51,224 bases of DNA, taken from an uncultured Bacilli bacterium. GTDB taxonomy: Bacteria > Bacillota_I > Bacilli_A > RFN20 > CAG-449. Numbering within the stretch: the first letter of the stretch is position 1; each line of letters begins with the position of its first letter. Both the position numbers and the translations under genes were made by a program. The notes beneath the pieces are model-generated. The model made no database searches, was not told the DNA's origin, and saw nothing but the letters and a program-made list of their open reading frames with translations. This document shows positions 13,982 through 32,355 of this stretch, piece after piece. Location of the stretch: the NCBI GenBank assembly GCA_947626895.1, contig CANQTY010000005.1, positions 1 through 51,224 of the forward strand, written 5' to 3'.

Positions 13982-15226
13982 TTAGAAGAAAGAAAGTTTC
14001 ATTTCACTTGCTTCATCAATACTTACAAAATCGCTTAATGAAGAATCAACATAGCAATGAATTCCATCTTCATCATCCATATAAATTGTTTTTACATTAA
14101 ATAAATTTGATAGAGTTTTACCCTCCTCGATAGAACACATCATTAAAGCTGTAGATAATGCATCACAACTAGCGCCATCTAGGTTAGAATTACTAAAAAC
14201 ACTCACTGAGCGATGATAAGATTGGTTTTGTAAATTATTTCCCACATTTACGCCCGTTGGGTATCCTGTCATGGGATTAATAATATGATGATATCGAATC
14301 CCATCACTTGTTAAATAATAGTTTTGATAATCTCCAGAAGTAGAAAAAGAAAATTTTCCTTGATAAGCAAAATGTAAAAATTCATCTTCCTTTTGTCTTA
14401 AAGGATATAAAGGATTGCAAATGGATATATTCCAAGTATCAAAATAAGAATCACCATAAGAAGTTAAAGAAGATTGTCCTAAAGAAAATAAAGAATGTTC
14501 ATCATCCATTATTTCACTTAGAATATCATTTACTCTACCTTTTGCAATTCCTCCAAAAGTGATACTGATAGTTTTATTTTCAATCTGACTAAATTTAACG
14601 CTTTTATTGATATCATCAAAAGTAAATATTTCTTTTATTTCCTCAATAGAGGGAGTATTATTTAATGCTTTATTAATTTCTTCTTCACTAGGGGTAATAT
14701 CTATTGTTCTTCCTTTATATTGACTAATATAAGAATCCCATAAAGAAGATAATTCACCAATACAAAAATTAAATTTACCTTCTGTTTTCAGCGTTAAATC
14801 ATAAGCAATTTTTAATAAATCATATGTTTCTTTTTCTAATGAGATAAATTCTTCATCCCCATAATGATTATTTAAATATGCGACATTATGCAATAAAGAA
14901 CCATCTGCTTTTTTAAAATAGGTATGTCGATCAAAACACATCGATAAATAGACGATTTCTTTTTTACATTCATTGAGTTTTGTTTCTAAGGAAGTCTTAT
15001 AACTTTCATGAAGATAGTTATAAGAAATAATTTCTGCTTGATCAAAAGCAAAATAAATGGGTAATTCCTTTTCATTACCATTTTCATCTATTTGAAAAGG
15101 AGTATATTCATTAAAAAAAACATTCATTGGTGTCATAAGGACATTTGTCCATGACATTTCTTTATCTTCAATATTGCATGAAGTTAATAAAGCTAGACAA
15201 AGAAAACCTAATAAATGCTTTTTCAT
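13982..15226 (-). CDS. apbE: ApbE-like FAD:protein FMN transferase, lipoprotein
   Basis: LLTSC lipobox; SITFGGIAKGRVND, SFSTSGDYQNYY, HHIINPMTGYPTG, DALSTALM motifs. Confidence 0.9.
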   Translation of the reverse strand: MKKHLLGFLCLALLTSCNIEDKEMSWTNVLMTPMNVFFNEYTPFQIDENGNEKELPIYFAFDQAEIISYNYLHESYKTSLETKLNECKKEIVYLSMCFDRHTYFKKADGSLLHNVAYLNNHYGDEEFISLEKETYDLLKIAYDLTLKTEGKFNFCIGELSSLWDSYISQYKGRTIDITPSEEEINKALNNTPSIEEIKEIFTFDDINKSVKFSQIENKTISITFGGIAKGRVNDILSEIMDDEHSLFSLGQSSLTSYGDSYFDTWNISICNPLYPLRQKEDEFLHFAYQGKFSFSTSGDYQNYYLTSDGIRYHHIINPMTGYPTGVNVGNNLQNQSYHRSVSVFSNSNLDGASCDALSTALMMCSIEEGKTLSNLFNVKTIYMDDEDGIHCYVDSSLSDFVSIDEASEMKLSFF

Positions 15227-26967: not shown

Positions 26968-27003
26968 AAAACACGTAAACATCATACCATAGCTTACGTG
27001 TTT
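26968..27003 (-). terminator. Terminator downstream of the rnf cluster
   Basis: Perfect 10-bp inverted repeat AAACACGTAA/TTACGTGTTT followed by TTTTC on minus strand. Confidence 0.75.
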
Positions 27004-27034
27004 TTAAAATTGAAATGATAGGTTTTTTCTTTTT

Positions 27035-27364
27035 TTATTCGCTGACTTTTAAAGTTTCACCATTTGGTCCAGGTGTGCTATTTAAATAAGTCACGATTGT
27101 TTGAGCTTTATCTTGTTTAATCACTTTACACATACGTACTTTCGTGACCTTTCCTTCGATAATAGCATCTACTAAACCTGCACAACCAGGATATCCACAG
27201 GCACCGCAATTGGCACCAGGCATATTTTTCATAACTTCCGCTTTACGTGGATCTTCTTGCACGGATAAAAATTTATCTGCAAGAGCAAGAACAACACCTA
27301 AAATAATGGCGATAACAACGATTACCGCGGCAGCAATTAACATTGATTGATAGTTAAATTCCAT
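27035..27364 (-). CDS. rnfB: RnfB-like subunit, short form: N-terminal TM plus one [4Fe-4S] motif only
   Basis: ALADKFLSVQEDPRK...MPGANCGACGYPGCAGLVDAIIEGKVTKVRMCK matches the RnfB N-terminal region; stops at 109 aa. Confidence 0.85.
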   Translation of the reverse strand: MEFNYQSMLIAAAVIVVIAIILGVVLALADKFLSVQEDPRKAEVMKNMPGANCGACGYPGCAGLVDAIIEGKVTKVRMCKVIKQDKAQTIVTYLNSTPGPNGETLKVSE

Positions 27365-27556
27365 TTATTTTTCCTCCTTATTATCTGCTGCATCGTCCTT
27401 ATTTTTATTAAACTTACAGAAAGTATTTTTACATTCTAGACATTCAATATCATCATCACACCCTTCAGGTTTTGCTACCTTTTTATTTAAAAGATAACCG
27501 ATGATAAAAATGGTAAGTAAAACAGCAACAATTCCAATCGCAGCAATGATTTCCAT
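27365..27556 (-). CDS. Small single-TM four-Cys protein inside the rnf cluster
   Basis: 63 aa: N-terminal TM, then C-x5-C-x2-C-x4-C and an acidic/Lys tail; lies between rnfA and rnfB. Confidence 0.75.
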   Translation of the reverse strand: MEIIAAIGIVAVLLTIFIIGYLLNKKVAKPEGCDDDIECLECKNTFCKFNKNKDDAADNKEEK

Positions 27557-27557
27557 T

Positions 27558-28181
27558 TTAGAAAATTCCTACAAGTCCATTCATAAAGATCATGGCCATA
27601 ATTGCAGTACAAAGTAAACCGACGGCAACGCCAGAAAATCCTTTAGGAATTGGTGCATTTTGTAATCGTTCTCTTAAAACAGAGAAGATGTAAAGAGCTA
27701 AGAAGAAACCTAATGCTGTACCAATAGAATAAACAAGCATGAAGATGAAATCACCAAATTCACCACCGATAGAATTAGTAAGGGATAATCCACCTAAAAG
27801 GGCATCCATATCGACGACTTGTTTACAGATATATAAGACAACACAGTTCGTGGTAATTAAAGGAAGATAGATTCCTAATGATTTATATAAAGATGGTGAG
27901 AACTTTTTAATAAACATTTCCACGAATTGCACGACACTTGCGACGACTAAAATAAAGCAAAGTGTCGACATATATTCAATATTCCATAAGACAAGGAGCT
28001 TATTTAATAAATAGCAGATAATCGAGGCTAAAACCGCGACGAAAGTAAGAGCAAATCCCATACCAACAGCGCTTTTCTTCGATTTAGAAACACCTAAATA
28101 AGAACATACCCCATAAGGAAGGGAGAATACGACGTTACTTGTTAACATCGCAATCATGAGTAACTTGAATACTTCTAACAT
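27558..28181 (-). CDS. rnfA: RnfA-like membrane subunit
   Basis: SNVVFSLPYGVCSYLGVSK; TTNCVVLYICK; gene order. Confidence 0.9.
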   Translation of the reverse strand: MLEVFKLLMIAMLTSNVVFSLPYGVCSYLGVSKSKKSAVGMGFALTFVAVLASIICYLLNKLLVLWNIEYMSTLCFILVVASVVQFVEMFIKKFSPSLYKSLGIYLPLITTNCVVLYICKQVVDMDALLGGLSLTNSIGGEFGDFIFMLVYSIGTALGFFLALYIFSVLRERLQNAPIPKGFSGVAVGLLCTAIMAMIFMNGLVGIF

Positions 28182-28183
28182 AA

Positions 28184-28894
28184 TTATTTAACCTCCTTTA
28201 CTGGAGCGCCATTTTCGGCTTCTTTTTTTAAAGCAGCTTCTTTTTTAGCTTTTTCTTTTTTATGTTCATCCATCATCATACGGATACAATAGAAAACACC
28301 TAAGATTAAGCCAAACATCATAAAGGCACCAGAACTTTGGACAAAGATTGGCATCTTATATTCTGCAAATGGTAAGAAAGAGAATAATAATTCATTGTTG
28401 AATGGATTACGGATAGTAAATCCACCTGTTCCTAATAATTCTCTAAAGAAAGCTAAGATTAAACAAGAGATTAAAAATCCGATTCCTGTTCCAAGTCCAT
28501 CAAGCATTGAATCTACAACACCATTTTTACTAGCAAAAGCTTCCGCTCTTCCTAAAATGATGCAGTTAACTGTAATCATAGGAATAAATAATCCTAAACT
28601 ACTTGCTAAATCTGGAGTAAATGCCTTCATCAAGTATTCAACCATCGTAACAAAGCTAGCGATGATGACGATAAAGACGGGAATACGAACTTCATTTGGT
28701 ACCCATTTACGAATTAAAGAGATAAAGGTATTCGTAAAGAATAAAACCATAATGACAGCGACACCCATACCTAAAGCGTTATTTAATGAGGTGGTAATTC
28801 CTAAGACTGGACACATACCAAGGAGATTTACTAAAATGGCATTTTCACGAATCAAAGGATTTACAAACGTAGCTAGTTTTCCATCTTTTTTCAT
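28184..28894 (-). CDS. rnfE: RnfE-like membrane subunit
   Basis: NPLIRENAILVNLLGMCPVLGITTSLNNALGMG; MITVNCIILGRAEAFASKN. Confidence 0.95.
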   Translation of the reverse strand: MKKDGKLATFVNPLIRENAILVNLLGMCPVLGITTSLNNALGMGVAVIMVLFFTNTFISLIRKWVPNEVRIPVFIVIIASFVTMVEYLMKAFTPDLASSLGLFIPMITVNCIILGRAEAFASKNGVVDSMLDGLGTGIGFLISCLILAFFRELLGTGGFTIRNPFNNELLFSFLPFAEYKMPIFVQSSGAFMMFGLILGVFYCIRMMMDEHKKEKAKKEAALKKEAENGAPVKEVK

Positions 28895-29436
28895 TAGGCA
28901 TTACCTCCTAAAGTTTTGTAATGAGCTAAAGCTTGATCAACAGCTTTTTTCATTGCATTCTTTGTTTTAGTCGCTCCTGCATAAGCTGGGAATTCATTTT
29001 GTCCTGTATAAGTTTTTAATTCACTTAAAGTTGTTTCATTGTTTTCATATTTACTAGCATAACCAGAATTGTTATTGGTAATCATTGAATATGAATCAAT
29101 TTTTCCACTTGTCTTATCAATTCCAAGCATAAAGGAGACTGTTCCCGATTGGGGATTATCTGTAGTTAAAGAATAGACATAAGAAGAAGCACTTCCATGA
29201 GGAACTTCCACTAGACCAGTGATATTTGTATAACCATTGCTAGCAAAGTCATAAGTGACTTCTTTAATGCCATCTACTTGAACACCATCATAAAGAACTT
29301 GATATGCTTCATTTCTTTTGACCATTTCATTATGTTCAATGACGGGTTGACAAACGTTATAGACCGCGGCAAGCGCTGTTCCAAAAAAGAGACATACACC
29401 ACCTAAAAATAAAGGAAGTTTTATAAATTTATTCAT
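28894..29436 (-). CDS. rnfG: RnfG-like subunit (FMN-binding)
   Basis: N-terminal TM; FPAYAGATKTKNAMKKAVDQAL FMN-attachment-like motif; gene order. Confidence 0.85.
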   Translation of the reverse strand: MNKFIKLPLFLGGVCLFFGTALAAVYNVCQPVIEHNEMVKRNEAYQVLYDGVQVDGIKEVTYDFASNGYTNITGLVEVPHGSASSYVYSLTTDNPQSGTVSFMLGIDKTSGKIDSYSMITNNNSGYASKYENNETTLSELKTYTGQNEFPAYAGATKTKNAMKKAVDQALAHYKTLGGNA

Positions 29437-29437
29437 T

Positions 29438-31027
29438 TTATTTACCCTCCACATAATCTAGAACACGATTGATACCATACATATAGCCTGAAACCGTGTA
29501 GGTTGCTCCACATTTTATAGTATCTGGTACTTTACTAAATTCGGTATAATTTGTAGAACTATAATATTGTAAATCTAATGCACGGAATGTAGCAAATGGG
29601 ATAGGATCTTCAAATTTAACATATGTTTCACTTAATTCTTTTAAATGACTACCTTTATCTTGTCGATAACCTAAGTATTCACTCATTTCTTCAACAACAC
29701 CTAAGAAGTAATCACCATATCCTCCACCTGCACCTGTATCATTGACTGTTACACTAACCACTGTTTTAGCTGAGGCATTTACTTCTACATCCATATCAAT
29801 TTGAACATAGGGAGCATCTTTTTCGGTTTGATTAGCAAAAGGAGTAACTTTTACATTGTAAACAGATGCACTCTTTTCTGTTACCACTGAATTATAAGTA
29901 GGTGTAGCGCTTGATACTTTTCCCATATAAGCACAGCTTACTAAGATTAATAAAGTACAAATTCCTCCCGTGATAGAGGCTTTAAGAGCTAATTTATCCG
30001 TAGTTCTTCCTTTAAAGCACATATCGATTAAAGGAGTAATCATATTTGCAAATAAGATAGAATAGGCAACACCTTCTGCGCCAGATCCCATGAAACGAAT
30101 GAGCATCGTGATAAATCCTGCAAAAACACCATAGATAATTTTACCTAATGGAGATGTAGGACTTGTCACAGGATCAGTTAAGCAGAAGACCGCACCAAAT
30201 AGGATACCTCCTGTTAACATTTGGGCTAAGATAAATGTTCCAAAATCACTTACACCATTTACTGCGCCAACTAACATGGCACTTAATAAACAAGTAAGTA
30301 AATAAGAACAAGAAATTCTCCAGTCGATGACGTGTAATACGACAAAAGCAATTCCAATGACGATAATTAATAAGGAGAATGTTTCACCTAAAGTTCCTCG
30401 ATAATTTCCGATAAATAAATCAAAAAGTGAAACATTACTAAAGGATGTTAAAGTATTCCATCCTTCGCCTGCCCAATTGCTTAAAACGGTAGGACCTGTA
30501 AAAACCTCAAATTCTTGTATACCTTCGATATGGCCATAATTAAATGAACTACCAAAGCAGATTTGAGCAAAGATTCTTCCAAAAATCGCGGGATTGAAGA
30601 TATTATATCCAAATCCTCCAAAGAGCATTTTACAAATGGCTACCGCAGCAATCGTGGTAAACACAAGTTGCCACCAAGCCATTCCAACAGGAAGAAGTAA
30701 AGCAAGAATAATACCTGTGATATAACCAAAAGAATTGATTTCTTTCTTTAAAAGATATAAGCAGATATTTCCTACTTTTTCCTTATTTTCTTTATATTCT
30801 TTTAAGGTTTTTGGTAAGAAAAATAAGATTTCTGTAACCATCGCAGTTAAAACACAAATGACAACGTTCAAGATTGCAAATAAGCCATCTTCAACATTTC
30901 CTGCGATAAAGTAATAAATAATAGCCGCTAACCAAACAAGAGCTAAACCACCTAAAAGCATTAACATGATTTTAAGTGTGCTATTTTTTGATCTTACGTA
31001 AGGAGCGGGATTTACTGCTAAATTCAT
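29438..31027 (-). CDS. rnfD: RnfD-like membrane subunit with extra C-terminal domain
   Basis: FGGFGYNIFNPAIFGR; FCLTDPVTSPTSPLGKIIYGVFAG; 529 aa, about 150 aa longer than typical. Confidence 0.92.
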   Translation of the reverse strand: MNLAVNPAPYVRSKNSTLKIMLMLLGGLALVWLAAIIYYFIAGNVEDGLFAILNVVICVLTAMVTEILFFLPKTLKEYKENKEKVGNICLYLLKKEINSFGYITGIILALLLPVGMAWWQLVFTTIAAVAICKMLFGGFGYNIFNPAIFGRIFAQICFGSSFNYGHIEGIQEFEVFTGPTVLSNWAGEGWNTLTSFSNVSLFDLFIGNYRGTLGETFSLLIIVIGIAFVVLHVIDWRISCSYLLTCLLSAMLVGAVNGVSDFGTFILAQMLTGGILFGAVFCLTDPVTSPTSPLGKIIYGVFAGFITMLIRFMGSGAEGVAYSILFANMITPLIDMCFKGRTTDKLALKASITGGICTLLILVSCAYMGKVSSATPTYNSVVTEKSASVYNVKVTPFANQTEKDAPYVQIDMDVEVNASAKTVVSVTVNDTGAGGGYGDYFLGVVEEMSEYLGYRQDKGSHLKELSETYVKFEDPIPFATFRALDLQYYSSTNYTEFSKVPDTIKCGATYTVSGYMYGINRVLDYVEGK

Positions 31028-32355
31028 TTTTTACCCTCCTTTTTTTGTGCCTCTAATTGTTTTAATTTGATGGATGTCATTAATTTGGCTTTTTTGACAA
31101 AGTCATTAACATCAATCTTACTTGGGCAGATATAAGAACATAAACCACATCCTATACAATGCCATGGAGTAAGTGCCATCATTCGATCACTATCTTTTGC
31201 TTGATAAGCATCTTTAATTTCCACTGGTTGTAAACCTACTGGGCAATGATCCGTACAGGCTCCACATCGTAAGCAAGGAAGTGTATTTAAAGTCATTCTA
31301 GGTAAAATCGTAAGTCCATTATAATAAGGTAATATAACGGCTTTATCATCCATAACTCCTCTTGAACACATTGGTCCACCAAAAGATACAGATACACTTT
31401 CACCAACATAACCACCTAAAAATTCAACAATATCAACTGCTCTTGTATAAATAGGAACATCGACATTTGATGGATTAGAAACTCCACTACCAGAAACGGT
31501 AATCACTTTATGAGTTTCCACTTCTCCATTCATTGCTCTAGCTAGCAAAATCGCGGTAGTCACATTATTGACAATGGTATGAGCTTCCGCAGGTAATTTA
31601 TCATACGTTCTTTTTAATACTGCTTTTACGATGAAACGTTCCCATCCCGCAGGATAGACGTTTTTCACATGAGCTACATGGATAGAGGGATTAATCGATT
31701 CAATATCCTTATAGCATTCATCTAAATCGGGATATCCTTTTTTATAGACGATATAAGCATCTTTTGCTCCCGCGGCTTTCATCATAAATTCAATACCATG
31801 AATTAATTCATCTTTATGAAGTAGCATCGCTTCATGGTCGGTAGTTAAGAATGGTTCACATTCAACACCATTAATTAAAATGGTATCGATATTCTTTTCT
31901 AAAGCACCTAAATATTTAATATAGGTTGGGAATCCTGCACCACCTTGACCACTTAAGCCAGATTCCTTCATGCGTTCAACAATTTGTTCTGCTGAAGCTT
32001 TCAAGTCAAGAACCTCTAAAGGTTCTACTTTTTGATGTTTCTTATCATTTTCAATCGCAAAGTGTCTTACATTACGACCTAGACCTGCATGAAACATCGT
32101 TTCTTCTCTAACGATTTTTCCAGAGACTGGGGCAAAAACAGGTGTTCCTTTTTCACACGTTCCAATCACTTGACCTTCTTTTACTAGATCACCGATTGAA
32201 ACATTGAGCTGAATCGGTTTAGAAGATCCTGGATCTACCACTGGAACAAAGACTTCATTGGGTTCAAATTTTAAAACTTCTTTACCCATGGAAAGTTTCT
32301 TTGTGTCTTGGATACGATAGAGATGTTTGTGTCCTAACGTAGTAAAAATAGACAT
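31024..32355 (-). CDS. rnfC: RnfC-like subunit
   Basis: GLSGQGGAGFPTYIKY; CLRCGACTDHCPVGLQP and CIGCGLCSYICPSKID, two [4Fe-4S] motifs. Confidence 0.95.
   Translation of the reverse strand: MSIFTTLGHKHLYRIQDTKKLSMGKEVLKFEPNEVFVPVVDPGSSKPIQLNVSIGDLVKEGQVIGTCEKGTPVFAPVSGKIVREETMFHAGLGRNVRHFAIENDKKHQKVEPLEVLDLKASAEQIVERMKESGLSGQGGAGFPTYIKYLGALEKNIDTILINGVECEPFLTTDHEAMLLHKDELIHGIEFMMKAAGAKDAYIVYKKGYPDLDECYKDIESINPSIHVAHVKNVYPAGWERFIVKAVLKRTYDKLPAEAHTIVNNVTTAILLARAMNGEVETHKVITVSGSGVSNPSNVDVPIYTRAVDIVEFLGGYVGESVSVSFGGPMCSRGVMDDKAVILPYYNGLTILPRMTLNTLPCLRCGACTDHCPVGLQPVEIKDAYQAKDSDRMMALTPWHCIGCGLCSYICPSKIDVNDFVKKAKLMTSIKLKQLEAQKKEGKK

Follow-up and report, generated by a model that had tools for sequence, protein, structure and literature searches.

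The window analysed here is a 51,224-nucleotide stretch of contig CANQTY010000005.1 (assembly GCA_947626895.1), derived from an uncultured Bacilli bacterium (RFN20, CAG-449), and carries on its minus strand, at 32355-27035, an rnf operon with the gene order rnfC-D-G-E-A-(63 aa)-B. The first gene, rnfC (31024-32355), encodes a protein of 443 aa in which two [4Fe-4S] motifs accompany the FMN/NADH glycine motif GLSGQGGAGFPT, and is followed by rnfD (29438-31027; 529 aa), rnfG (28894-29454; FMN_bind, with the motif AGATKT), rnfE (28184-28894) and rnfA (27558-28181). Both [2Fe-2S] Cys ligands are kept in RnfE as well as in RnfA, and across 103 operons these ligands were unchanged except for one gap in one incomplete RnfA. 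A gene for a 63-aa protein with one TM helix and four Cys (27365-27556) separates rnfA from rnfB (27035-27364), the latter running from ATG to TAA and encoding 109 aa.

Residues 1-342 of the rnfD product correspond to RnfD, and residues 343-529 form a C-terminal extension of 187 residues (29438-30001, minus strand), comprising a helix and a CGATYT motif that resembles a flavin attachment motif. This extension also occurs in many relatives, and the GAT-like motif is mostly kept among those aligned. Its structure model reached a pLDDT of 61, a quality at which no meaningful fold match was obtained.

The RnfB protein consists of a TM helix (residues 5-32, approximately), an FdI/FeS domain bearing CGACGYPGC...C, a C-terminal helix and a conserved tail, the tail after the FeS domain measuring 30 residues. 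A profile search assigned residues 49-80 to the FeS domain PF04060 (41.6 bits; cut-off 23) and returned no Fer4-type domain, i.e. the ferredoxin-like domains are absent. TIGR01944 was matched over model positions 3-93 of 190 with 50.3 bits, below its cut-off of 68.7, and the alignment of RnfBs from the PDB (333, 174 and 274 aa) to the window RnfB was confined to their first ~77 residues. The top PDB matches of the AlphaFold model (pLDDT 88), as identified by Foldseek, were to corrinoid iron-sulphur protein with a [4Fe-4S] domain (2ycl and 9fzy; probability 1.00, with weak E-values of 0.03-0.09), a likeness of FdI that has already been reported (PMC9588780). With 109 aa and PF04060 alone, the protein is a single-cluster RnfB of the T. 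maritima type, understood here as one of about 95-110 aa that has one cluster and ends after FdI, the T. maritima figures being those of PMC7414866. The ORF and the PF04060 match agree with an earlier note on this DNA, which described a 109-aa RnfB that keeps the TM helix and the CGACGYPGC...C motif and ends at a TAA codon.

The same note placed a terminator after rnfB and held that the missing ferredoxin domains are not nearby, and both statements agree with the downstream sequence. On the same strand, rnfB is separated from hpt, purB and purA by about 70 bases. These include an inverted repeat with 11-bp arms (26968-26978/26994-27004) and, after it on the minus strand, T's, together a likely transcription terminator; the repeat (26968-27004) was not called by a mechanical terminator scan because its loop measures 15 nt. 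A second rnfB was sought elsewhere in the genome (91.6% complete) and not found, the window RnfB being its only PF04060 match; the other TIGR01944 match, on contig C28, corresponds to the C-terminal 2[4Fe-4S] domain of a HydB-like hydrogenase subunit.

All six subunits (C, D, G, E, A and B) are thus encoded in one operon. RnfA and RnfE supply the four Cys for their shared [2Fe-2S] cluster, RnfC has retained its FMN/NADH motif along with two [4Fe-4S] motifs, and RnfB possesses the TM helix and the FdI [4Fe-4S] domain. Only the ferredoxin-like C-terminal domains of RnfB, which are usual but not universal, were not found, and these are not a defining feature of Rnf, since the functional Thermotoga maritima complex also lacks them.

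To place the short RnfB among its relatives, RnfB length was compared at increasing taxonomic depth, as the earlier note had proposed. Among 279 genomes of the order, 262 contain a match to the RnfB model; among the matches listed, N-terminal RnfB matches in more than 100 genomes span the TM/FdI part only, in frames that, again among the matches listed, are mostly about 100-140 aa long. At class level, short RnfB recurs in many families, and some families have long RnfBs too. These relatives rule out a recent mutation, frameshift or assembly error that would have shortened RnfB and left a broken complex, a reading that deserves practically no credence: no point in its support was found, the same length range recurs across genus, family, order and class, the C-terminal helix and tail past the cluster motif are conserved, the end boundary is identical in many independently assembled genomes, and no relative of this operon type was seen with an intact longer, let alone full-length, rnfB frame. 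Short RnfB is real and heritable; it predominates in the order and is widespread in the class.

In total, 107 rnf operons were compared, and a tree built by a quick method from RnfA+RnfE (103 rows; SH-aLRT support) contains a branch with 99% support that separates 64 operons from 39. The CxxCxxC ferredoxin motif is present in none of the RnfBs of the 64-operon clade, and full-length RnfB is encoded by 38 members of the 39-operon group. Full-length RnfBs of the present class (families f12 and f20) fall within this other, mainly Clostridia, group, as would be expected of horizontal transfer. The single exception in the group is a Spirochaetes operon (L069), which encodes an RnfB of 98 aa yet is placed among full-length representatives, suggesting that shortening of RnfB probably had two or more independent origins. 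A further variant was observed in family f14, where four RnfBs of 183-192 aa (L138 6625-7188, minus strand; L139; L140; L143) combine a TM helix with a tandem pair of FdI domains (PF04060). Their interpretation as FdI plus a ferredoxin domain was rejected, the second part being a tandem FdI copy.

From the missing domains, the earlier note had argued that the electron entry route must differ, be it through a separate ferredoxin protein, the extra small subunit or another donor. This conclusion is not supported in view of T. maritima, whose RnfB has a mass of 10.56 kDa and one predicted [4Fe-4S] cluster and is encoded in an operon with the gene order rnfCDGEAB (Kuhns et al. 2020, PMC7414866). 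The purified T. maritima Rnf is an active ferredoxin:NAD+ oxidoreductase that pumps Na+ and takes electrons directly from C. pasteurianum ferredoxin, and T. maritima membranes accept Clostridium ferredoxin (PMC7414866). Its authors wrote of the single cluster in RnfB that it "remains to be established" (PMC7414866); the short RnfB is mentioned as well in PMC9588780, and a 2025 review, in which the C-terminal RnfB domain is said to hold two to seven clusters, leaves out the one-cluster form (PMC12174285). Judged by its published description, the T. maritima complex resembles that of the window in its order C-D-G-E-A-B and its one-cluster RnfB of ~10.6 kDa. It differs in that no gene between rnfA and rnfB has been described there, whereas the clade has the 63-aa TM/Cys protein; in addition, the clade RnfB has a conserved tail, and the RnfD C-terminus is extended in the window and many relatives. 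The Acetobacterium woodii and Clostridium tetanomorphum complexes share with the window, by sequence homology, the RnfA, C, D and E core and FdI, but their RnfB adds ferredoxin-like domains, with 6-8 [4Fe-4S] clusters in all, which the window RnfB lacks. Structures of these two complexes present FdI as a shuttle that moves between the RnfB ferredoxin-like part and the RnfA/E [2Fe-2S] cluster (PMC11889175, PMC9588780).

Because the T. maritima complex works, FdI alone can accept electrons from ferredoxin, which we infer to apply here too, and in principle neither a substitute donor nor a substitute subunit is needed. A search with PF12838 revealed no standalone 2x[4Fe-4S] ferredoxin in the genome, its matches lying only in large frames, and the separate 2x[4Fe-4S] protein envisaged by the earlier note was not recovered. 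Flavodoxin was likewise dropped as an alternative donor, as no match was obtained in the genome at the thresholds used. The genome does encode a pyruvate:ferredoxin oxidoreductase (PFOR), a HydA/HydB-type [FeFe]-hydrogenase and a 62-aa ferredoxin of the single-cluster type (Fer4_13/Fer4_15; G000:C11:27119-27283, corresponding to L153 3102-3290), the only small ferredoxin found. A match to the flavin transferase ApbE, one of two in the genome, is located in a 417-aa frame of the window (14105-14884, minus strand), and ApbE is presumed to flavinylate RnfG and RnfD.

The operon probably encodes a minimal but complete Rnf, and the analogy of T. maritima suggests that soluble ferredoxin reduces FdI directly in it and that FdI feeds the [2Fe-2S] cluster of RnfA/E. 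RnfB would then be a membrane anchor plus a mobile FdI with one [4Fe-4S] cluster, and nothing more. Reduced soluble ferredoxin would be made by PFOR, and the 62-aa ferredoxin would hand its electrons directly to FdI, which would swing into the RnfA/RnfE groove and reduce the [2Fe-2S] cluster there. Electrons would subsequently pass through RnfG-FMN, RnfD-FMN/riboflavin and RnfC to NAD+, accompanied by Na+ or H+ pumping, or the whole path may run in reverse; the core route (FdI to RnfA/E, RnfG, RnfD and RnfC) has been established by solved Rnf structures. The ferredoxin-like domains found in other RnfBs would represent an optional docking and relay extension, absent throughout this Rnf clade. 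A complex that makes no use of ferredoxin, with another donor feeding RnfB or with NADH electrons passing via RnfC to extracellular acceptors by way of RnfG and the RnfD extension, would accord with the absent ferredoxin-docking domain, the GAT motif carried by the RnfD extension and the very large RnfG proteins of some relatives. It is nevertheless highly improbable, as RnfB, RnfA and RnfE are kept with all their ligands and NADH export would not need them, PFOR and ferredoxin are encoded in the genome, and T. maritima provides a counter-example.

The 63-aa companion of this putative minimal Rnf appears to be undescribed in the open-access literature. Its Cys residues C39, C42 and C47, which follow the TM helix, are invariant in 37 aligned relatives (53-106 aa, read from the first start codon), and the fourth Cys is usual. 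Of the 64 clade operons, 57 carry the gene between rnfA and rnfB (53 with short RnfB and all four with tandem FdI). It does not occur in the Spirochaetes operon L069 or in any of the 38 full-length operons placed on the tree. The seven clade operons from which it is missing are L062, L147, L149, L151, L146, L148 and L108, the last of which has no rnfC within the stretch covered. Four genomes with hydrogenase- or cytochrome-bd-linked rnf operons (the f19 genomes and G272) were examined, and all have the small gene elsewhere; in G272 it lies directly after apbE and outside the rnf operon (L173 2378-3905).

The earlier note's extra small subunit is accordingly a real and conserved gene, but T. 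maritima has a functional short RnfB in its absence. The protein could still be an Fe-S subunit, i.e. a seventh component that forms with FdI a split ferredoxin-entry module replacing the lost domains. Such a role would fit its location between rnfA and rnfB in 53 short-RnfB and four of four tandem-FdI operons, compared with 0 of 38 full-length operons, and its three invariant and one usual Cys; the f14 RnfBs, being tandem FdI proteins, offer no argument against a replacement of the ferredoxin domain by the small protein. We consider it unlikely, given that T. maritima functions with the gene order rnfCDGEAB, that short RnfB occurs without the small gene in L069 and in the hydrogenase-linked and cytochrome-bd-linked operons, and that copies lie outside rnf operons, one of them after apbE. 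Moreover, the association opposes one clade to another, and may reflect shared descent only.

Comparison with Na+-NQR, which has a membrane core homologous to that of Rnf and is served by NqrM (DUF539) and ApbE, suggests a different function. The two systems differ in that NqrF occupies the position of RnfB in NQR and NqrA contains no redox centre. The intramembrane [2Fe-2S] cluster of NQR depends on NqrM, which is itself a small membrane protein, and nqrM and apbE adjoin in Vibrio as NQR maturation genes (PMC12174285). The position of the small gene after apbE in G272, like that of nqrM with apbE in Vibrio, suggests a helper of iron insertion. Identity with NqrM by profile was rejected, as the 63-aa protein did not match PF04400 at E <= 10 and PF04400 is not among the 25 Pfam families listed for the 37 relatives. 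The traits that it does share with NqrM, namely a single TM helix followed by a Cys group and a genomic link to apbE or the Rnf/Nqr core, support the notion that it works like NqrM rather than membership of that family. A short TM segment and a Cys motif also characterize the FeoB-associated Cys-rich membrane protein (PF12669), from which the 63-aa protein differs by its location in an rnf operon; PF12669 gave weak matches in 13 of the 37 relatives (best E 0.0018) and none for the window protein itself. Overall, the evidence favours a helper over a redox subunit, and an NqrM-like, trans-acting helper for the RnfA/E iron-sulphur cluster is judged, by this analogy, somewhat more probable than the other options taken together. 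Its close association with the ordinary operons of the clade means that the small gene may have a structural or redox role there. We know of no earlier NqrM-like helper for Rnf, and the small Cys protein, if a true NqrM-like factor, would be the first of its kind.

A short, one-cluster RnfB as such is already known from T. maritima; the present comparison adds its clade-wide scale and its probable two or more independent origins, along with the RnfBs with tandem FdI, the small Cys protein conserved in the clade, and paralogous Rnf operons of an unusual kind. A large Erysipelotrichia/Acholeplasma-like group normally has the one-cluster form, to which attention had until now been drawn for T. 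maritima; FdI by itself is thus probably the essential ferredoxin acceptor, with the polyferredoxin part as an add-on. Complexes with short RnfB represent natural minimal systems for studying the reduction of FdI by ferredoxin.

Among the paralogous operons, those of L062 (3866-10300) and L147 (61-7109) encode a short RnfB and are immediately preceded by an [FeFe]-hydrogenase gene. The RnfC-like proteins of L062, L147, L149 and L151, all with short RnfB, have lost the FMN/NADH glycine motif and keep the two [4Fe-4S] motifs; L149 and L151 group with L147, the upstream hydrogenase having been checked in L062 and L147 only. The arrangement of these hydrogenase-linked operons suggests a ferredoxin-to-H+, Rnf-type energy-converting hydrogenase. 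At L146 (40-5250), rnfD-G-E-A-B follow the genes for cytochrome bd subunits I and II; this operon has an RnfB of 99 aa and no rnfC, and L148 (15000-18300) contains a similar operon without rnfC, the upstream cytochrome bd having been checked in L146 only; a ferredoxin-to-quinone branch is possible for these rnfC-less operons. Finally, the RnfG-like protein encoded at L076 (3813 onward) is 1555 aa long and probably has many flavin domains.
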